Source: Aeromicrobium sp. PE09-221
GTDB lineage: Bacteria; Actinomycetota; Actinomycetes; Propionibacteriales; Nocardioidaceae
Assembly (NCBI RefSeq): GCF_002174305.1
Contig: NZ_MIJB01000025.1
Location: 124,001-188,000 of the forward strand
Direction: 5' to 3'
Length of the DNA stretch: 64,000 nucleotides
This document shows, piece by piece, positions 5,129 to 20,509 of the stretch (its first letter is position 1; each line of letters opens with the position of its first letter). Position numbers and translations under genes: made by a program. The notes beneath the pieces are model-generated. The model was given only the letters and a program-made list of their open reading frames with translations, was not told the DNA's origin and made no database searches.

Positions 5129-6021
5129 AGGACCTCGTCCGCACCTCGGATATCCGGCAGCCGACCGTCCTCGGGTGGGCGTGGGCCTCCCTCGTCGCCA
5201 ATATCGGCATCATCCTCACGGGCGGTCTGGTGCGACTGACCGGGTCAGGTCTCGGGTGCCCCACCTGGCCGCGCTGCACCGAGGAGTCCTTCGTCCCCCA
5301 CTCGTCACTGGGATGGCACGGAGCCATCGAGTTCGGCAACCGTCTGCTGACCTATGTCCTCATCGCGATCGCGATCGGCACCTTCTTCGCCGTATGGCGC
5401 TGGGCCGGAGCGACCAGCACCATGAAACAGCTCACCGTGCTGATCGGCATCGGCATCCCGTTCCAGGGCGTCATCGGCGGCATCACGGTCCTCACCCAGC
5501 TGAATCCCTGGGTGGTCGCGCTGCATCTGCTGCTTTCCATGGGACTCGTCGTCGCCGCGACCGTCCTGCTCGTGCTCGTGCGGGGCGAGGACGGTTCGAG
5601 GGTCGATGACCTCACGCGACGGCTCGTGCTGTTCGCCTACGGTCTGCTGCTGATCGCGATCTACCTCGGCACCATCGTCACCGGCAGCGGCCCTCACGCC
5701 GGCGATGCCGATGCCCCGCGCAACGGCCTCGACCCGCTGTTCTGGACCCGCGTCCACGCCATGTCGGTATGGGCACTCGTGGCTGTGACACTCGTGGTGG
5801 TCTGGCGATTGCGCGGACACCGCGTCCAGCGTGCCGCATGGATCGTCCTGGCGGCGGAGCTCCTGCAGGGTGCGATCGGATATGTCCAGCACTTCACCGG
5901 ACTCCCGATCGGGCTGGTGGCCGTACATCTGGTGGGCGCCGCGATCCTGCTCGCGGCCACGACCCATCTCGTCCTACAGGTGGCTCCTCTCCGGCGCGAT
6001 CGCGAACCCGTCGACGCCTGA
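5119..6021 (+). CDS. ctaA: Heme A synthase
   Basis: Membrane-bound heme A synthase of 300 residues, oxidising the C8 methyl of heme O to make heme A for cytochrome c oxidase. About eight transmembrane helices are visible. The extracytoplasmic cysteine pair Cys47/Cys53 (GLGCPTWPRC), the His67/Glu71 pair in WHGAIEFGNR, and further conserved histidines in VVALHLLLS, RVHAMSVWA and VAVHLVGAA match the family. It starts inside the last codons of the exporter permease and is convergent with ctaB, which supplies its heme O substrate. It ends just before a small hairpin. Confidence 0.95.
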   Translation: MGVKDLVRTSDIRQPTVLGWAWASLVANIGIILTGGLVRLTGSGLGCPTWPRCTEESFVPHSSLGWHGAIEFGNRLLTYVLIAIAIGTFFAVWRWAGATSTMKQLTVLIGIGIPFQGVIGGITVLTQLNPWVVALHLLLSMGLVVAATVLLVLVRGEDGSRVDDLTRRLVLFAYGLLLIAIYLGTIVTGSGPHAGDADAPRNGLDPLFWTRVHAMSVWALVAVTLVVVWRLRGHRVQRAAWIVLAAELLQGAIGYVQHFTGLPIGLVAVHLVGAAILLAATTHLVLQVAPLRRDREPVDA

Positions 6022-6028
6022 TCGCTTC

Positions 6029-6045
6029 CTCACCAGGGCGGTGAG
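6029..6045 (+). terminator. Hairpin after ctaA
   Basis: CTCACC and GGTGAG pair around a five-base loop eight bases after the ctaA stop. The following region to 6193, before the ctaB stop, holds further GC-rich dyads (for example CCAGGC near 6053 with GCCTGG near 6080) but no gene. Confidence 0.4.
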
Positions 6046-6193
6046 CCATCAACCAGGCGGCGGCGCGGGGTGGGTTGCCTGGCCACCGCCCCACCCCCAC
6101 CCGCAGCTGAGGGGTGCGTCACTACGTACCGGAACGGCTCGACTACGGGATGACGCCACCGCCCGGGGCACGGTGGAAGAGCAGCTGCGAAGA

Positions 6194-7144
6194 TCAGCCG
6201 ATGAAGGGATCGACCGCGGCGGCGACGAAGAGCAGCGCCAGGTAGGCATTCGAGAAGTGGAAGAGCCGCATCGGCTTAATGACCGACAGCTGTTCCGTCT
6301 CGCGCGCGCGTGCGCGCAGATCATAGGCCTCGATGAGGAAGACGATGCCCAGCGTGATCGCGGCCGCCGGATAGAACCATCCGGTGTCGGCCACCGGCCA
6401 GACAGCCAGCGAGGTGACCACGGTCGCCCACGTGTACCAGACGATCTGACGTCCGACCTCCGCAGCCGGGGCGATCGACGGCAGCATCGGCACGCCAGCG
6501 GCCGCGTAGTCCTCGCGGTAGCGCAGGCCGAGAGCCCAGAAGTGCGGCGGGGTCCAGAAGAACACGATGAGGAAGAGCAGGAATGGTGCCCAGGCGAGCT
6601 CATTGGTGACGGCCGTCCAACCGATCAGCGGCGGGAAGCACCCCGCCGCGCCACCCCACACGATGTTCTGCGAGGTGCGCCGCTTGAGGATCATCGTGTA
6701 GCCGACGACATAGAACACATTGGCAGCGAGCGCCAGTCCCGCGGAGAGCCAATTGACCAGGAAGCCGAGCCACACCGTGGCGATCACGCCCAGGACGAGG
6801 CCGAAGACGAGCGCATTGCGCGTGCCCACCTGATGACGCGGCAGCGGACGACGCGAGGTGCGGCGCATCTTGGTGTCGATATCGGCATCGACCACGCAGT
6901 TGAGCGCATTGGCGCTGCCGGCCGCGAGCGCACCGCCCACGAAGGTCGAAAGGATGAGGGTGAACGACGGCACACCACGCTCGGCCAGGAACATGACCGG
7001 GACGGTGGTGAGCAACAGCAGTTCGATGATGCGCGGCTTGGTGAGCGCTACATACGCCTTGACGACATCGGCCGCGGAGGACCCGTGATCCTGCCGAGTG
7101 GACGACGAACCGTTGACGGGAGCCTCGTGGTCGACGGAAGTCAC
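6194..7144 (-). CDS. ctaB: Protoheme IX farnesyltransferase (heme O synthase)
   Basis: UbiA-superfamily prenyltransferase of 316 residues that attaches a farnesyl group to protoheme, giving heme O. The first Asp-rich motif spans NCVVDADID...RRTSRRPLP near residues 82-103; the second aspartate-containing loop ([16 protein letters not shown]) lies near 208. About nine membrane helices are visible. The GTG at 7144 has no ribosome site, but a TAGACT -10 ends six bases upstream, so a leaderless mRNA starting at GTG is likely. Convergent with ctaA, divergent from tkt. Confidence 0.95.
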
Positions 7145-7150
7145 CTGAGC

Positions 7151-7156
7151 AGTCTA
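7151..7156 (-). promoter_or_regulatory. -10 element of ctaB
   Basis: TAGACT on the minus strand, six bases before the GTG start of ctaB, in the 72-bp divergent region shared with tkt. Confidence 0.45.
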
Positions 7157-7216
7157 ACTCGTACGCAGTAGGCTCGGAGTGACCGGCTTCTGACACACGA
7201 TCTGGGAGTAACGCCC

Positions 7217-9379
7217 GTGAGCACTGCACCGTCCGCGCTGGACTGGAACGACCTCGACCGCAAGGCGGTCGACACCGCTCGTCTCCTCGCTGCCGACGCC
7301 GTCCAGAAGGCCGGCCACGGTCACCCCGGAACCGCGATGAGCCTGGCGCCCGCCGCCTATCTGCTCTACCAGAAGCTCATGCGCCACAACCCCGCCGATC
7401 CGCACTGGACCGGTCGCGATCGCTTCGTCCTGTCGTGCGGTCACTCGAGCCTCACGCAGTACGTCCAGCTGTACCTCGCGGGCTACCCGATGGAGCTGAA
7501 CGATCTCAAGAGCCTGCGCACCTGGGGCAGCCAGACGCCCGGCCACCCCGAGTACGGTCACACGCCGGGTGTCGAGGTCACCACCGGCCCCCTCGGCCAG
7601 GGCATCGCCAATGCCGTGGGCATGGCGATGGCGGCACGCCGTGAGCGCGGTCTTCTCGATCCCGATGCTGCCCCCGGTGAGAGCGTCTTCGATCACTCGG
7701 TCTATGTGATCGCCTCCGATGGCGACGTCCAGGAGGGCGTGTCGGCCGAGGCCTCTTCGCTGGCGGGGCACCAGCAGCTCGGCAACCTCACCCTTCTTTA
7801 TGACGACAACAAGATCTCGATCGAGGACAACACCGATGTCGCCTTCACCGAGGACGTCGCCGCGCGCTACGAGGCCTACGGCTGGCATGTCCAGACCGTC
7901 GACTGGACCCACGGTGGCACCGAGTACCGTGAGGACCTCGGCGCCCTCTGGGACGCCTACCAGCAGGCCGCGCAGGTCACCGAGAAGCCGAGCCTGATCG
8001 TCCTGCGCACCATCATCGCGTGGCCGGCCCCCAACGCACAGAACACCGGCGCCGCCCACGGCTCCGCTCTGGGTGACGACGAGATCCGTGCGACCAAGGA
8101 GGTGCTGGGATTCGACCCCGAGGCCACCTTCGCTGTGTCCGACGACGTCATCGAGCACACCCGTCAGGCACGCGTGCGCGGCGAGCAGGCGCAGACCGAC
8201 TGGCAGGACCGTTTCGACGCCTGGGCACAGGCCGATCCCGATCGCTATACGCTCTTCCAGCGCCTGTCCGCTCGCGAACTGCCCTCGGGCTGGGATGACG
8301 ACCTGCCCGTCTACGAGGCCGACGAGAAGGGCATCGCGACCCGGGTGGCCTCCGGCGAGTTCCTGACTGCCGCGGCCCCCAACCTCCCCGAGCTCTGGGG
8401 CGGCTCGGCCGATCTGGCCGGCTCCAACAACACGACTCCCAAGGGAGAGCCTTCGTTCATCCCGCCCCAGCGATCGACCGAGAAGTTCTCCGGCGACTGG
8501 TACGGACGGGTCCTGCACTTCGGCATCCGCGAGCACGCCATGGGAGCGATCCTCAACGGCATCACCCTCGAGGGACTGACGCGTCCCTATGGCGGCACGT
8601 TCCTCGTCTTCAGCGACTACATGCGTCCCGCGGTGCGGCTCGCCGCACTGCAGGAGCTTCCGACGACCTTCGTGTGGACCCACGATTCGATCGGCCTCGG
8701 CGAGGACGGTCCGACCCACCAGCCGGTCGAGCATCTGGCCGCGTTGCGCGCGATCCCCGGCCTCGATGTCGTCCGGCCGGGCGACGCCAATGAGACGATC
8801 GTCGCTTGGCGCACCATCATGGAGCGGCACCATCGTCCGGCCGGTCTGGTGTTGAGCCGCCAGAATGTACCGACCTTCCCCCGCGGCGTGGACGGTTACG
8901 GCGAGGCCGCGCTCACCGCGAAGGGCGCCTACATCCTGCTCGACACCGAAGGCACCCCCGATGTCGTCCTGGTCGCCACCGGCTCGGAGGTCCAGATCGC
9001 CGTCGCGGCTCGTGAGCAGCTCGCCGCCGAGGGCATCGCGGCCCGCGTCGTCTCCATGCCGTGCCGTGAGTGGTTCGAGGAGCAGAGCAGCGAGTACCGC
9101 GACTCCGTCATCCCGCCCTCGGTCCGCGCACGCGTGTCGATCGAGGCCGGCGTGGCGCTCGGCTGGCGCGATGTCGTCGGCGACGCCGGTCGCATCGTGA
9201 GCTTGGAGCACTTCGGCGCCTCGGCCCCCTTCGGGACCCTGTACGAGAAGTTCGGGCTCACGGGCGAGGCCGCCGCCGCGGCGGCCAAGGAGTCAATCCA
9301 GGCGGCCGCGACCCCCGACGCGGGTGTCCCCTTCGCTGCCCGCCCCACCGGCCCGGTGCTCCCGGACACCACCCACTGA
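7217..9379 (+). CDS. tkt: Transketolase
   Basis: Thiamine-diphosphate enzyme of 720 residues that transfers two-carbon units in the non-oxidative pentose phosphate pathway. Conserved stretches include [16 protein letters not shown] near residue 33, the TPP/metal site [19 protein letters not shown] near residue 170 with its downstream DDNKIS, and in the second half [14 protein letters not shown] and [14 protein letters not shown]. The GTG start follows GGGAG by eight bases. First gene of a rightward block tkt-tal-pgi-zwf-opcA-pgl that covers nearly the whole pathway. Confidence 0.96.
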
Positions 9380-9407
9380 CTCTCCTGACCCACCGAAGGA
9401 GCCCACC

Positions 9408-10496
9408 ATGACCGATCCTCTGGCAGCCCTGAGCGAGGCCGGCGTCTCCGTCTGGCTCGACGATCTCTCCCGCGAGCGCATCGAGAGCGGCAATCTCGCC
9501 GAGCTCGTCGAGCAGCGCCATGTCGTCGGCGTCACCACCAATCCGACGATCTTCGCGGCCGCCTTCGCCGAGAGCGAGCGCTACACCGAGCAGATGCGTG
9601 AGCTCAAGGCCGCCGGTGTCGACCTCGAGACCGCGGTCTTCGAGTTGATGTGCACCGATGTGCAGCGTGCCTGCGACATCCTGCGCCCGGTCTACGACCG
9701 GACCGACGGCCTCGACGGGCGCGTCTCGATCGAGGTCGATCCAGGACTGGCTCGCGACACCGACGGCACGGTCGAGCTGGCCGCGCGGCTCTGGCAGCGC
9801 GTCGACCGCCCGAACCTGTTCATCAAGATCCCGGCCACCCGCGAGGGCCTGCCGGCCATCGCCGCGACGATCGCCGAGGGCATCAGCGTCAACGTGACGC
9901 TGATCTTCTCCCTCGAGCGCTACCGCGATGTCATGGATGCCTATCTCTATGGCCTCGAGCAGGCCGCGGCCGAGGGGCGCGACCTCTCGGCGATCGAGTC
10001 GGTGGCCTCCTTCTTCGTGAGCCGTGTGGACTCCGAGATCGACCCTCGCCTGCCCGAGGACAGCCCGCTACGCGGCAAGGCCGCGATCGCGAACGCCCGC
10101 TTGGCCTACGAGGCCTGCGAGCAGGTCTTCTCCTCCGAGCGCGCGCAGGCACTGCTCTCTCAGGGCGGCAAGCTCCAGCGACCGCTGTGGGCCTCGACGG
10201 GCGTGAAGGATCCGAACTACTCTGACACGCTCTACGTGCGCGAACTCATCGTCGCCGATAGTGTCAACACCATGCCGGAGAAGACGCTACTGGCCTTCGC
10301 CGATCACGGCGAGGTGCCCGGGGACACGGTGACGGGCCGCTATGACGAAGCTCGCGATGTGCTGGCCCAGCTCGAGGGCCTCGGGATCTCTTACGACGAG
10401 GTGGTAGCGAAACTCGAGGACGAGGGCCTCGAGAAGTTCGACGCCTCCTGGGCCGAGCTGCTCGACACAGTCCGCGAGGAGCTGGACAAGGCATGA
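9408..10496 (+). CDS. tal: Transaldolase
   Basis: Transaldolase of 362 residues, exchanging dihydroxyacetone units between sugar phosphates. The Schiff-base lysine lies in [11 protein letters not shown] near residue 140; the N-terminal [10 protein letters not shown] and the later [15 protein letters not shown] are family hallmarks, and the length fits the long actinobacterial class. ATG at 9408 is chosen because GAAGGAG lies eight bases upstream. It follows tkt by 28 bases in the same operon. Confidence 0.96.
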
Positions 10497-15315: not shown

Positions 15316-15333
15316 GCAACGGCTTCGCGCCGG

Positions 15334-15993
15334 TCAGCCCTCGGACGGCTGTGCCCACTCGCTGCGAGTGTGCGCGAGATGTTCGCTGAGGAGCCGCTCG
15401 GCTGCCTCACCGTCGCCTTCGAGCACGGCGTTCAGGATGCTGCGATGCTCGCCGGCAGCCTCGCTCAGGGTGTGCGCATCGGACTCGCGGAGACCGTAGA
15501 GTCGTGTCTGGTCGCGGAGGATGGCGACCCAGTCCAGCAGTCGCCGATTGCCGTGGAGCTCAAGGAGTGCCAGGTGAAACTCCCGATCCGCGGCCAGGAA
15601 GGTGTTGACGTCCCGGTCCTCGGCCGAGACCTCCGTGGCACGCACCAGCTGGTCCAGTCGATCGCGCTCGGCGGTGAGATCGACATCGGCCAGCGCGCGG
15701 ACCGCAGGCACCTCGAGCATGAGTCTGAGCTCGAAGACCTCGTCGAGGTCGGCCGGAGTCAGCTCCGCCACCCGGAACCCGATATTGCGGACCGGCTCCA
15801 TGATGCCGGCGTTCACGAGAGTGAGCATCGCCTCGCGCACGGGGCTGACGGACACACCGAGCTCGCGGGCGAGTGCGGTGGCCGAGCAGACCTCGCCGCT
15901 CTTGATCTCCCCTGAGACGATCGCCTGACGCACGATCCGCAGGGCCTTGTCACGGAGGCTGTCATCGCGCTCCAGGGTTCTGGCGGAGATCAT
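15334..15993 (-). CDS. GntR-family transcription regulator, FCD (FadR-type) subfamily
   Basis: Regulator of 219 residues. Residues about 1-75 form the GntR winged helix (IVRQAIVSGEIKSGEVCSATALARELGVSVSPVREAMLTL spans the helix-turn-helix), and the rest is an all-helical FCD ligand domain (EVFELRLMLEVPAVR... and the metal-site-like DREFHLALLELHGN and EHRSILNAVLEGD). ATG at 15993 is chosen because it has a GAAGAGG ribosome site; the upstream frame overlaps the neighbouring gene. The ligand is unknown. It lies 92 bases downstream of the chimeric oxidoreductase gene, co-oriented, and a 14-bp palindrome precedes both genes, so it probably regulates itself and that gene. Confidence 0.88.
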   Translation of the reverse strand: MISARTLERDDSLRDKALRIVRQAIVSGEIKSGEVCSATALARELGVSVSPVREAMLTLVNAGIMEPVRNIGFRVAELTPADLDEVFELRLMLEVPAVRALADVDLTAERDRLDQLVRATEVSAEDRDVNTFLAADREFHLALLELHGNRRLLDWVAILRDQTRLYGLRESDAHTLSEAAGEHRSILNAVLEGDGEAAERLLSEHLAHTRSEWAQPSEG

Positions 15994-16036
15994 GGGTGCC
16001 TCTTCGACATGTCTCGTACAGTACCCCATCGGCACT

Positions 16037-16050
16037 GGTAATCGACTACC
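16037..16050. promoter_or_regulatory. Probable GntR/FCD operator, site 1
   Basis: GGTAATCGACTACC differs by one base from the perfect palindrome GGTAATCGATTACC. It lies 44 bases before the ATG of the GntR gene. A sister site at 20006-20019 precedes the chimeric gene. FCD-type GntR operators commonly have a GT...AC core of this size. Confidence 0.65.
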
Positions 16051-16084
16051 GTTCAAGGTGAATCGGCCGGTGCACGTATCGCCC

Positions 16085-19000
16085 TCAGATATCGAGGACC
16101 ACATCCCCGATCGGCACGGCGATACAGGTGAGACACCCGTCATCGGCCGGGTCCTCGCCGAGGTGAGCGATCGTTCCCGACACCACCCGGACGGCGCAGC
16201 TCTCGCACTGGCCGACCCGGCAGCCACTGGGCAGGATGCGTCCCTGTCTCTCGGCTGCCTGAAGAATCGAGCCGTCGGCCGGGGTCCAGTCGATCGGCTC
16301 TCCACCGCCCGCGAACCGGATCGCGGCCGGTCCGAGGTCCCGAGGCACCTCCACCGCGGCGTGGAAGTCCTCCCGGAAGACATCGAACCTCGGCACGCCG
16401 CGTGCGGTCAGCTCCTCCGTGACGTCGTCCATCAGACCCGAGGCACCACACAGGTAGACGAGGGGACGCTCGGCGACCGGCAGATCCAGATCGCCGAGCG
16501 ACAGCCTTCCCAGCGCGTCGAAATCACGACCCCGTCGATCCGCCGGCGAGGGCTGGGAGTACCAGGTGCGGATGCTCAGCTCCGGCAGTTCTCCCGCGAG
16601 CAGCTCCAGCTCCTCGTGGAACGGGTGCTCGAGGCCGTTGCGGAACACGGCGAGCAAGGTGATCGAGCGCGGTCGCTCGGGACGGTTCCGCAGCGCCCGG
16701 AGATAGCCGATGAAGGGCGTGATGCCGACTCCCCCGGCCACCAGGATGACAGGGCGATCGGTCGACAGCGGAGGGGTGAAGGTTCCCCGCGGACGCTCCA
16801 GCCACAGCTGCGATCCCGGCGTCACGTCCTCGTGCACGAAGCGGGAGATCACACCGTTCTCGACCCGCCGCACGGCGATGTCGACCGTTGACGCGCCCTC
16901 GCCACCTCCCGTCACCGAGTACGCGCGCGCCGGGCCGTCCTCACTGGCGGCGAGCAGCACGTGCTGTCCGGGGCGCACGGCCGGCATCGACTCCCCCGTG
17001 GCCGGGGTGAGGCTCAGTCCTGCCACCCCCTGCGCCTCGGACCAGGCGCGCAGGACGCGCATCTGCTGTCGGCCGGCCCAGTTCCCCTCGCTGAGCACGG
17101 GATCGGCCCTCAGCTCGCAGGCGACGGCGCGCAGGGGGACTGAACCGCTCGTCGGATCGTGCTCGTCATCGCTGAGCACCGCGTTGATGTTCAGCGAACC
17201 GTCCCCGCTGACCGGTGTTCGGGGCAATCCCAGCGGCGGACAGTCCTCCCACCACCCGAAGTCCGCGAGGACCACACTCGGATGCAGGTCATCGTCGACG
17301 TGGACGCGGGCTCGGGTCGTCCCGTTCGCCGTCTCGATGACGGCCCAGTCGCCGTCGATCAGGCCGCGAGAGTCCGCGAGCTCTGCGCTGATGTCGATCT
17401 GCGGGTCAGGGGCCCGCCTCCGCAGCGAGGCGACGTGCCGGTGCGAGCTGTGCACGTAGACACCGTTCTTGTGCGTCGACAGGACCAGCGGCAACGGGGT
17501 GTCGTCACGGCCCCGGTACGAGGTGATAGGCGCGACGAAGGTCGGCAGAGGGCGGTACCCATGTTCGAGCAGCTGCTGGGAGTACAGCTCCACCCGCCGT
17601 GTCGGTGTCGCGAAACCCGCGACTCCTCCGTCCTCACGGCGGAGGGCGTACTTCTCTCGTGCGGTGGGCTGCGGGACCCGCACCGTGTGCTCTCCGTCGA
17701 CGAGCTCCCGGAGGCTGACCCCGGCGGGCGCCAGATGCCACTCCCATCCCGCGCGGATGTCACCGTCGAAGAACTCCCCGCCGAGACCCAGCCTCGTGGC
17801 CAGGTCCACGGCGATCTCGTAGTCGGCGCGGGACTGACCGATCGGATCGATCATCCGAGGACGGTACTGGAGATACTCCACCGCCTCCTGTGTGATCTCG
17901 AAACCGGTCCGCAATGCCTCGCGTTCCCACGGACTGTTCGCCGGTAGGACGTAATCGGCGAGCTCAGCCGTCGGGTTCATGAACATATCCGTGTGGACAT
18001 AGAGATCCAGGGCCTCGATGGCCGCTCTGCTGCGCTCACCGTCCGCCTGCGAGACCGTCATGTTGTTGCCGAAGCTCACCAGTGCCCGCACTCGATAGGG
18101 GTCGCCGTCCAGGGCCGCCCGACAGAAGTGGCGAGCAGTCACCCAGCCAAGCCGGGGCGGGCCCAGCGGCAGGTCCTCGAGTCCGAGCGCCTTCTCCTTC
18201 TGCTCTCGCGGCAACAGATCATAGGGCGAGAGGGGATTCAGCGGAGGCGGCTGCAGCCACAGATTGCCACCGATCCGATCGCACGCTCCCAGCAAGGCGT
18301 AGAGCGTCGCGATGCACCGTTCGGTCTGCGTCGCATTGGAGTGCTGTCCCACCCCGGTCCACGAGTGATAGGCGATACGGCCCCCGCGGCTGAGCAACCC
18401 GAAGAAGCGCTCGAGCTCGGCGAGGCCGATCGTCGTCGCCTCGGCCACCGCCTCCGGCGTCCACTCGGCACTGTGCTCGCGCAACCGGGCGAAGGCGGGG
18501 CGTGCGGTGATCCGTCGGCCGTCGACGGTGCTCAGCTCGACGCTCCCGGCAAGGTCGACCTCGCCGGGACGCTCCAGCGGGTAGCCGGGGTCATACGCCC
18601 GGAGCGCTCCTGTGGCGAGGTCGCTGACCACGAATCCGCTTGCAGATCCGTCCTCCCAGAGCTGATCGGCGGTGACGAACCGTCCGGTCTCGTCATCGAC
18701 GAGCATCGGCGCATTGGTCCACGAGCGCACGAAGTCCGCGTCATAGGTCTCGGTCTGAAGCAGGTGGCGGACCGCGCCGAGCGCCAAGGCCGCGTCGGTC
18801 CCTGGCCGGACGCGCATCCACAGATCGGACTGCTGGCCGCTCCCGGCCTTCTTCGGGTCGATCACCACGACGGCTGCACCGCGGGCATGGGCCTCGGCGA
18901 TACGGCTCGCCTGCGCCAGCCAGGTGCGCGCGGGATTGTGACCCCAGAGCAGGATGGTCTCGGCCTCGTCGTAGTCCGGCACTCCGACACCGCGTCCGAA

Positions 19001-19834
19001 GGTGAGGGCGTGCGCATAGTCCTTGTGCCAGCCGCAGTTCTCGACCGCGTAGATGAGATTCGGGCTGCCGAAGATCCGGACCAGGCGCTCGATCCACTCG
19101 ATGCTGTCGACGATGGGTGTGCCGGACGGGGTCGTGGCGGCGAAGGCGACGGCGTCGACGGCTCGCTCGGCCGGGACGCCGTCGCGGCAGGCGAGGATGA
19201 TGTCTCCAGCCTCCGCGAAGGACGAGGCACGGGTCTCGACAGTGACGAAGGCCCGGTCGACGAGGGCGGTGTCGACCTCGCGCGCATCGGGCGAGTGGGA
19301 TCCGATGGCGACGACGGTCGTGTCCTCACGCAGCGATGCCGAATCGAAGAGCGGCAAGGAAGCCGAGGTGCAGCAGGCGACGATGTCCGCCTCCCCTACC
19401 GCTGCCGGAGAGCCGATCTCGGCCTCCAGCCCGGTCGCCGCCGCCCAGGCCACGAGCTGGTGCGTCCGTTCCGGGGATCGGCCCACCACGATGACCCGGC
19501 TCAGCGGGCGCACTGCACGAATGGCCTCGATATGACCGCGCGCCTGGGGCCCGGCGCCGAACACCACGAGGGTCGAGGCGTCCGCGGAGGCCAGATGACG
19601 GACCGCCAAGCCGGAGAGTGCGGCTGTGCGCAACACGGTGAAGCCGGCGGCATCGAAGATGACCGCCGGCTTCAGCGTCAGGCTGTCCGACAGGATCACG
19701 AGGCCCTGGATGCGGGGAAGGCCTCGCTGGTGATTCGTCGGAGACACCGAAGCCATCTTGACTCCCACGACGCCGTCGACCTGCGACGGCATGTAGAGCA
19801 GATGACCGTGGGGCAGATCCGTGCGGCTCCGCAA
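16085..19834 (-). CDS. Chimeric ORF: truncated ornithine-cyclodeaminase-like domain fused to N-truncated molybdopterin oxidoreductase/flavoreductase/2Fe-2S protein
   Basis: A single open frame of 1249 codons made of two unrelated genes. Codons 1 to about 225 are an ornithine cyclodeaminase/mu-crystallin-like domain (GVVGVKMASVSP; Rossmann FGAGPQARGHI near 92), lacking the last 60-100 residues of that family. At about codon 226 (near 19150-19170) it continues in frame as a molybdenum-bis-MGD oxidoreductase (WGHNPARTW near 297, DPKKAGSGQQSD, HSWTGVGQHSNATQ), but without the N-terminal CxxCxxxC [4Fe-4S] segment. From about codon 920 follows a ferredoxin-reductase module (RAYSVTGGGE, VAGGVGITPF), then a plant-type 2Fe-2S domain (GCRVGQCESCAV...GCLTC). 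The only start in this frame is TTG; the natural 5' end lies upstream in another frame. Probably a deletion product; function doubtful. Confidence 0.8.
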   Translation of the reverse strand: MRSRTDLPHGHLLYMPSQVDGVVGVKMASVSPTNHQRGLPRIQGLVILSDSLTLKPAVIFDAAGFTVLRTAALSGLAVRHLASADASTLVVFGAGPQARGHIEAIRAVRPLSRVIVVGRSPERTHQLVAWAAATGLEAEIGSPAAVGEADIVACCTSASLPLFDSASLREDTTVVAIGSHSPDAREVDTALVDRAFVTVETRASSFAEAGDIILACRDGVPAERAVDAVAFAATTPSGTPIVDSIEWIERLVRIFGSPNLIYAVENCGWHKDYAHALTFGRGVGVPDYDEAETILLWGHNPARTWLAQASRIAEAHARGAAVVVIDPKKAGSGQQSDLWMRVRPGTDAALALGAVRHLLQTETYDADFVRSWTNAPMLVDDETGRFVTADQLWEDGSASGFVVSDLATGALRAYDPGYPLERPGEVDLAGSVELSTVDGRRITARPAFARLREHSAEWTPEAVAEATTIGLAELERFFGLLSRGGRIAYHSWTGVGQHSNATQTERCIATLYALLGACDRIGGNLWLQPPPLNPLSPYDLLPREQKEKALGLEDLPLGPPRLGWVTARHFCRAALDGDPYRVRALVSFGNNMTVSQADGERSRAAIEALDLYVHTDMFMNPTAELADYVLPANSPWEREALRTGFEITQEAVEYLQYRPRMIDPIGQSRADYEIAVDLATRLGLGGEFFDGDIRAGWEWHLAPAGVSLRELVDGEHTVRVPQPTAREKYALRREDGGVAGFATPTRRVELYSQQLLEHGYRPLPTFVAPITSYRGRDDTPLPLVLSTHKNGVYVHSSHRHVASLRRRAPDPQIDISAELADSRGLIDGDWAVIETANGTTRARVHVDDDLHPSVVLADFGWWEDCPPLGLPRTPVSGDGSLNINAVLSDDEHDPTSGSVPLRAVACELRADPVLSEGNWAGRQQMRVLRAWSEAQGVAGLSLTPATGESMPAVRPGQHVLLAASEDGPARAYSVTGGGEGASTVDIAVRRVENGVISRFVHEDVTPGSQLWLERPRGTFTPPLSTDRPVILVAGGVGITPFIGYLRALRNRPERPRSITLLAVFRNGLEHPFHEELELLAGELPELSIRTWYSQPSPADRRGRDFDALGRLSLGDLDLPVAERPLVYLCGASGLMDDVTEELTARGVPRFDVFREDFHAAVEVPRDLGPAAIRFAGGGEPIDWTPADGSILQAAERQGRILPSGCRVGQCESCAVRVVSGTIAHLGEDPADDGCLTCIAVPIGDVVLDI

Positions 19835-19961
19835 CGGCGTGTGCTCGGTCGCCGTCCCGGTGCGCAGCGCGCCCTCCAGCGCGTTGATCGCCTCCTCATA
19901 GGAGACGAGACCGTCGAAATCGGCCGCGGTGACGAAAGGGAAGGGCGGATGAGTCGTGCAT
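19835..19961 (-). pseudogene. Out-of-frame 5' end of the ornithine-cyclodeaminase-like gene
   Basis: An ATG at 19959-19961 with an upstream GAGAGG opens a frame reading MHDSSALP; after one extra base in the run AAA (19935-19937, TTT in the sense strand) the homologous reading continues in the other frame as FVTAADFDGLVSYEEAINALEG..., the expected start of an ornithine cyclodeaminase-like protein. Removing one base joins it to the TTG-led frame at 19834. Either a genuine frameshift or a sequencing error. Confidence 0.7.
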
Positions 19962-19990
19962 GCGGTGTCGGGTACCTCTCGTGGGGTTCA

Positions 19991-20006
19991 CGGTCACCCC
20001 TGACCG
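19991..20006. promoter_or_regulatory. Second dyad in the chimera leader
   Basis: CGGTCA-CCCC-TGACCG, a perfect 6-base inverted repeat with a 4-base spacer, abutting the 14-bp palindrome at 20006-20019. It may extend the operator or form a short hairpin in the leader. Confidence 0.4.
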
Positions 20007-20019
20007 GTGATCGATTACC
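20006..20019. promoter_or_regulatory. Probable GntR/FCD operator, site 2
   Basis: GGTGATCGATTACC, one base from the perfect palindrome GGTAATCGATTACC and nearly the same as the site before the GntR gene at 16037-16050. It begins three bases after the -10 of the chimera promoter, at the expected transcription start, a position suited to repression. Confidence 0.68.
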
Positions 20020-20022
20020 CAT

Positions 20023-20052
20023 AACGTAGGGCCAGCCGTGTTATGGCGTCAA
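20023..20052 (-). promoter_or_regulatory. Promoter of the cyclodeaminase/oxidoreductase chimera
   Basis: On the minus strand TTGACG (20047-20052) and TACGTT (20023-20028) are separated by 18 bases. This is the best sigma70-like promoter in the window. It drives the transcript across site 2 and into the ATG at 19961. Confidence 0.6.
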
Positions 20053-20093
20053 CGGCGGAAGCGCAGAAATGTGAATGTAACGCAACGAGAGAA

Positions 20094-20130
20094 AGCCATC
20101 GCCCACGGAAGGACTCCGTGGGCGATGGCT
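20094..20130 (-). terminator. Terminator after rbpA
   Basis: Perfect 16-base stem (20094-20109 with 20115-20130) and a 5-base loop, 25 bases after the rbpA stop. In the direction of rbpA transcription it is followed by TTTCTCTC, a fair intrinsic terminator. Confidence 0.85.
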
Positions 20131-20155
20131 AGCGCAACAGTTCAGGGGCCGGCGA

Positions 20156-20509
20156 TCAGAAGATGATCTCCCCGGTCTTACGCTTGGTACGCAGAGTCTC
20201 GAGGGCCTCATCGAGGATCGATGCGGCCTCCTCCTCCGAGCGCCGTTCCTTCACATAGGCCAGGTGCGTCTTGTACGGCTCGATACGTGGAGCATCGGGC
20301 CGATTCTCCGCATCGCGGCTGGCCGGGAGTCCGCAGCGCGGGCAGTCCCACTCGAGCGGCACCTCGGCCTCGATCGCGAACTGCAAGGTCGTCCGATGGT
20401 CCTTGACGCAGAAGAACTCCACCGTCTGGCGGGGCGCCGCCTCGCCGCGCTCAGCCTCGCCCATCGGACCGGCACCGATCCGACTTCCGCGGATCGCTCC
20501 GGTCGACAT
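20156..20509 (-). CDS. rbpA: RNA polymerase-binding protein RbpA
   Basis: Actinobacteria-specific RNA polymerase-binding protein of 117 residues that stabilises promoter open complexes with the primary sigma factor. RGSRIG at the N-terminus, APRQTVEFFC near residue 30, a zinc site formed by FFC, KDH and CPRC, the EPYKTHLAYVKERR segment and a C-terminal sigma-interacting helix are all present. ATG at 20509 is chosen since it shares a base with the secG stop (TGATG), implying translational coupling; longer frames run into secG. It is the last gene of the gap-pgk-tpiA-secG-rbpA block, followed by a strong terminator. Confidence 0.93.
   Translation of the reverse strand: MSTGAIRGSRIGAGPMGEAERGEAAPRQTVEFFCVKDHRTTLQFAIEAEVPLEWDCPRCGLPASRDAENRPDAPRIEPYKTHLAYVKERRSEEEAASILDEALETLRTKRKTGEIIF

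Follow-up and report, generated by a model that had tools for sequence, protein, structure and literature searches.

An in-frame fusion of an ornithine cyclodeaminase family gene and a molybdenum oxidoreductase gene in Aeromicrobium sp. PE09-221, very probably a recent two-lesion pseudogene of a four-gene catabolic cluster

We analysed a stretch of 64,000 nucleotides from Aeromicrobium sp. PE09-221 (contig NZ_MIJB01000025.1, positions 124,001 to 188,000; hereafter the window), in which a single open frame on the minus strand joins part of a gene for a protein of the ornithine cyclodeaminase (OCD) family to most of a gene for a molybdenum (Mo) oxidoreductase with FNR and 2Fe-2S domains. The fused frame extends from TTG 19834 to a stop ending at 16085 without internal stops, and corresponds to residues 43-270 of the OCD protein followed by residues 104-1126 of the Mo protein. 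It belongs to a cluster occupying the interval ~15316-20160, between two genes which, from their sequences, we take to be pgl and rbpA. The features of the fused frame are as follows:

16085..19834, minus strand: chimeric open frame, 1249 codons long when read from TTG, which is the first permitted start.
19151..19834, minus strand: OCD-family remnant, residues 43-270 of a 315-residue intact protein, the last 45 residues being deleted.
16085..19150, minus strand: Mo/FNR/2Fe-2S remnant, residues ~104-1126 of 1126, without the [4Fe-4S] segment and with Cys144 retained.
19150..19157, minus strand: deletion join, 8 bases common to both alignment blocks.
19896..19961, minus strand: native OCD start and short frame of 21 codons, with a stop at 19898-19896 owing to a one-base insertion.

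Pfam placed OCD_Mu_crystall at residues 9-214 of the chimera, Molybdopterin (PF00384) at 237-680, Molydop_binding at 783-904 and, in the C-terminal part, FAD_binding_6, NAD_binding_1 and then Fer2 at 1185-1241, an order agreeing with a preliminary description of this DNA, which had read one frame joining an OCD part to a Mo/FNR/2Fe-2S part. PF00384 scored 83.7 bits (cut-off 24), from profile position 49 onward, and PF01568 scored 66.5 bits (cut-off 26.8); PF02423 was covered over positions 50-260 of 314 in the chimera, versus 7-309 in the intact OCD protein of Aeromicrobium piscarium. Molybdop_Fe4S4 (PF04879) was absent among the 8 Pfam families listed for the chimera, and was present in both intact Mo proteins scanned, those of A. 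piscarium and Brevibacterium yomogidense. In addition, the chimera fell below the curated equivalog cut-offs for Delta1-pyrroline-2-carboxylate reductase (NF004793, 162.6 bits versus 322; NF045512, 121.1 versus 400) in an NCBIfam scan that covered the chimera only.

The nearest named relative was A. piscarium Co35 (NZ_VLNT01000003.1; locus L036, genome G009), in which an OCD protein of 315 residues (gene at L036:3249-4196), a SCFA_trans transporter of 474 residues, a Mo/FNR/2Fe-2S protein of 1126 residues and a GntR regulator are encoded by four separate open frames; A. piscarium (L036 and L068) thus carries the intact parental genes at the same locus as the window. In B. yomogidense DSM 24850 (NZ_JABASY010000003.1; locus L037), the OCD, transporter and Mo genes are likewise intact and in the order found in A. 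piscarium, so that the separate forms suggested earlier as a thing to look for exist in both relatives. With the intact proteins of A. piscarium as reference, blastp matched chimera residues 1-228 to OCD residues 43-270, and residues 227-1249 to Mo protein residues 104-1126. The preliminary estimate of about 225 OCD codons was therefore close, 228 being matched from TTG 19834, and its statements that the OCD part lacks its C-terminus and the Mo part its N-terminal [4Fe-4S] segment were borne out, the former ending at residue 270 of 315 and the latter starting at residue 104. At the DNA level, L036:2706-4059 (85.7% identity) and 6000-9828 (85.5%) abut in the window with an overlap of 8 bases, mapping to 19150-19157 a join that had been put near 19150-19170.

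In A. piscarium coordinates, ~1,948 bp are absent from the window, comprising the codons for the last 45 OCD residues, the entire transporter gene and the codons for some 103 N-terminal residues of the Mo protein, including the [4Fe-4S] segment. The deletion had been proposed to lie between two neighbouring co-oriented genes; the genes are indeed co-oriented members of one cluster and the frame was kept, but in the two closest relatives the transporter gene lay between them. At the parental sites in A. piscarium, GCCG is identical at both and the pattern CGA-N-GCCG occurs at both. These short shared motifs fit, as expected, illegitimate recombination at short repeats, although a 4-base match alone is weak and was read from A. 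piscarium bases. Relocation of the deleted segment within the genome was also considered and rejected, because the transporter had no match elsewhere in the assembly of PE09-221 despite two positive controls, A. piscarium and genome G430, both of which matched.

A second lesion, on which the preliminary description was silent, affects the start of the frame. The native OCD ATG at 19961 is conserved in position but is out of frame with the chimera, because the window has, compared with A. piscarium, one additional base in a T run (19935-19937) at about codon 9; position 19961, formerly given as the right end of the open frame, is thus the ancestral OCD start rather than part of that frame. The chimera frame offers no ATG, GTG or TTG upstream of TTG 19834, as far back as the stop that precedes it, and the insertion together with this absence leaves the chimera without a normal start. 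Inspection by eye of the bases before TTG 19834 showed no GGAGG-like run at a typical distance; there was just a GAG triplet 10-12 bases upstream.

The deletion also removed a cofactor site. Specifically, all 12 full-length relatives aligned (those of A. piscarium and B. yomogidense and ten plasmid-borne proteins) have Cys11, 14, 18, 45 and 144 of the Mo protein, of which the window retains Cys144 only. Loss of the 4Fe-4S cluster would probably interrupt electron flow from the flavin and 2Fe-2S centres to Mo. Molybdenum cofactor synthesis itself appears to be present, as judged from a single match to the MoaA-type domain PF06463.

Taken together, these data make it very probable that the fused frame is a recent pseudogene, carrying two lesions, of a four-gene catabolic cluster. 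Before the lesions, the cluster would have encoded an OCD-family reductase, a SCFA_trans/TIGR00366 transporter, a NAD(P)H-linked Mo-bis-pterin oxidoreductase and a GntR regulator. One lesion, a deletion of ~1.95 kb between short repeats, would have joined the OCD and Mo genes in frame; the other, the one-base insertion past the native start, would have uncoupled the fused frame from its start codon, and the product would then be either not made or not active. Both lesions are probably recent, the frames being otherwise clean and amino-acid changes still few.

Several observations weigh against this interpretation. The join kept frame, an outcome with a one-in-three chance; past it, the chimera continues for 1,021 codons without a stop, and no uncompensated coding indel relative to A. 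piscarium was found from 19120 to the end of gntR, a stretch with three compensating gap pairs, 7 bases apart, that may be alignment effects. Between the window and A. piscarium, nonsynonymous divergence (dN) of the Mo part was 0.067 and synonymous divergence (dS) 0.592 over 1,008 codons, a low dN/dS; dS in six neighbouring genes was 0.49-0.76. In favour of a pseudogene, polarising lineage-specific changes with B. yomogidense as outgroup gave 36 amino-acid changes in the window lineage versus 18 in that of A. piscarium (Mo part 31 versus 16, OCD part 5 versus 2; binomial p 0.02), but the excess is weak once synonymous codons are included (103 versus 82; Mo part 76 versus 67, OCD part 27 versus 15; Fisher p 0.16). 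Also counting against a pseudogene, the regulator is intact, with 0 amino-acid changes in the window lineage versus 2 in A. piscarium. In favour of one, 5 of 30 window-specific changes versus 0 of 16 A. piscarium-specific ones fell at positions with at least 80% conservation among ten outgroups, one window site without outgroup letters being omitted, but a rank test of conservation at the two sets of sites was not significant (p 0.13), and window-specific changes fell at slightly less conserved sites than average (0.54 versus 0.61, p 0.15). Strong relaxed selection was accordingly rejected as proof of gene death, the signal being weak. If the lesions did end function, we infer that they are young, since a gene neutral along the whole branch would be far more decayed.

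An error of assembly or sequencing, with intact genes in the organism, is unlikely. The genome is a draft of 111 contigs, and some sequencing platforms make errors of the kind seen in the short T run, where the additional base may be an artefact. The 8-bp overlap at the join, however, would be too short to mislead an ordinary assembly, the contig is 218 kb long, the transporter is missing from an assembly with a stated completeness of 99.99%, and the stretch compared with A. piscarium holds no further uncompensated coding indel.

It is quite unlikely that the frame encodes a functional new enzyme, in which a Rossmann NAD(P) domain would be tethered to a flavin/2Fe-2S reductase and translation would begin at TTG 19834, at a non-standard start or after +1 slippage. 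The open frame of 1249 codons, the low dN/dS and the retention of Cys144, FNR and 2Fe-2S domains speak for such an enzyme, but the low dN/dS may largely date from before the lesions, no credible start lies before or at TTG 19834, the OCD part is missing 42 N-terminal (counted from TTG) and 45 C-terminal residues, and the Mo part has lost the four [4Fe-4S] cysteines of all 12 relatives. Moreover, no homologous fusion was found in 396 genomes of the phylum or in 427 matching plasmid records. A fixed new protein, one outcome raised in the preliminary description, is not supported, the frame having no usable start and both halves lacking parts kept by intact relatives, and its suggested search for fused forms yielded none outside the window. 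Very unlikely, too, is weak translation of the fusion, starting at TTG 19834 or reached by slippage on CCC-TTT-C close to the native start, with the product in a new role as NAD(P)H-dependent diaphorase-like electron donor and its Mo domain a mere scaffold.

An established protein family with OCD placed ahead of the Mo oxidoreductase is extremely unlikely: the genes are associated at 7 of 15 loci of Mo homologues, but they are separate and variable in order in all seven, and, with a join-spanning query of 301 residues, 81 of the 396 phylum genomes (own included) matched at E up to 1e-15, with only the window covering both halves and the other matches being one-sided and overrunning the join by at most 36 residues, while none of the 427 matching records among 72,556 plasmid records covered 80% of the query.

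As a recent pseudogene, the fused frame would neatly illustrate that one deletion between short repeats is enough to create an in-frame fusion that nevertheless does not function, and it carries a caution for automatic annotation, by which the chimera should not be called a multidomain enzyme. Its value as a new protein is small, the frame being probably dead; the intact cluster of transporter, Mo/FNR/2Fe-2S protein and OCD-family reductase poses the more interesting biological question.

The regulatory features of the cluster are as follows, the FCD-type GntR regulator adjoining the fused frame in keeping with the GntR context described earlier:

15334..15993, minus strand: GntR/FCD regulator, intact, 219 residues from ATG 15993.
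20006..20019, minus strand: candidate operator GGTAATCGATCACC, palindrome-like, upstream of the OCD start.
16037..16050, minus strand: candidate operator GGTAGTCGATTACC, matching the GGTAATCGATCACC site, upstream of gntR.

The combined pattern of the two operators matched exactly in the window at these two sites only; with up to 2 mismatches, there were 5 matches at three sites versus 1.06 expected, a figure that is descriptive, the pattern having been built from the same sites. Both candidate operators are conserved in A. piscarium, and no comparably clear pair was seen by eye in B. yomogidense. Rfam gave no family at gathering score in positions 1-64000 of the window.

A survey of pgl yielded 30 loci from 43 matching genomes, 28 of them from genomes other than PE09-221 and A. 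piscarium. At these 28 loci, no cluster gene lay within ~1.5 kb of pgl (E up to 1e-3), and rbpA was present near pgl in 26. The patchy distribution and the Brevibacterium match suggest that the cluster is probably a horizontally acquired insertion common to two close species. Its GC content, 0.682-0.691 over 15-20 kb, lies inside the flank range of 0.640-0.707 and gives no foreign signal, and a recent foreign insertion visible by composition was rejected on that ground. In other Aeromicrobium (L069, L070, L082, L083 and L086), the pgl-rbpA interval is short or holds ~1 kb of unrelated cargo, including, by eye, a membrane protein resembling CtaG and an alpha/beta-hydrolase-like protein. The interval looks like a variable insertion spot.

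Among the matches listed in a search that covered 37 genomes of Aeromicrobium, PE09-221 among them, high-identity matches over the Mo part occurred only in PE09-221 and A. piscarium, the matches listed reaching E values of ~1e-12, far weaker than a high-identity match would score. Outside the pgl locus, an OCD-family gene with 44-46% identity to the OCD half was found in each of two further genomes of the genus:

L008, G023:C2:223425-224171: OCD-family gene.
L009, G036:C40:87480-88226: OCD-family gene.

Among 394 class genomes, PE09-221 included, 4 matched the Mo protein at E up to 1e-60, and the Mo/FNR/2Fe-2S protein alone was matched over at least 80% in one place in 27 plasmid records; its domain order is the usual one in this widespread family. 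The 15 loci of Mo homologues inspected came from the two named genomes, 11 plasmid records from the 20 best and two other genomes, and were not drawn at random; an OCD homologue lay near the Mo homologue in 7 and a transporter in 5, and from the 7 co-locations the OCD and Mo genes look like functional partners. Intact modules combining a Mo/FNR/2Fe-2S protein with an OCD-family reductase and a SCFA/TIGR00366-type transporter were seen repeatedly, in both Actinomycetes and Proteobacteria (L036, L037, L044, L049 and L097). Two homologues were irregular: that of Mesorhizobium amorphae pM0123d (L050 7001-10458) is annotated in two pieces with the 2Fe-2S domain apart, possibly through a frameshift, and a shorter one (L098, G254:C3:51755-54163), covering residues 5-801 only and with one internal TGA, may be a reductase-less form or a decaying copy.

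The intact cluster could work as an electron chain from NAD(P)H through flavin, 2Fe-2S and 4Fe-4S to Mo, which would deliver an imino acid to be reduced to an amino acid by the OCD-family enzyme. Our guesses for a substrate yielding an imino acid are pyrrole-2-carboxylate or 2-keto acid oximes. Proline dehydrogenase and pruA genes near the Rhodococcus opacus module fit the former, as a single case; the modules of Agrobacterium cucumeris, Phaeobacter and Paraburkholderia have neighbours that differ from those of R. opacus, and a Paracoccaceae copy has an aspartate-dehydrogenase-like gene in its region and no OCD match. Titles and abstract openings in the literature searched gave no published substrate for the intact cluster, and PMC10667639, in the part seen, was unrelated to it.

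Compared with known systems, the cluster of A. piscarium Co35 resembles the window in its pgl-rbpA position, regulator, candidate operators and DNA identity (85.5-85.7% in two blocks), but its OCD, transporter and Mo genes are intact and separate. The B. yomogidense cluster shares with A. piscarium the OCD-transporter-Mo order and an adjoining GntR gene, but its GntR gene is divergent, its genes, unlike those of the window, are intact, and its flanking genes are others. Modules of R. opacus 1CP pR1CP1 and genome G430 (L044 and L097) likewise contain GntR, Mo/FNR/2Fe-2S, an OCD-family protein and a TIGR00366 or SCFA-type transporter, although the order is Mo-OCD-transporter and identity is 45-49% for the Mo protein and 30-35% for OCD. 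Among solved structures, the best sequence relative of the intact Mo protein was acetylene hydratase (PDB 2e7z, E 9.5e-56), in which a cysteine, the metal ligand, pairs with Cys144; its chain of 727 residues, however, matches only within Mo residues 26-779, leaving FNR and 2Fe-2S unmatched. For the intact OCD protein, the best solved relative was Delta1-pyrroline-2-carboxylate reductase (PDB 6t3e, E 1.2e-36), in comparison with which the window copy, counted from TTG, lacks the N-terminal 42 and C-terminal 45 residues of the intact protein.

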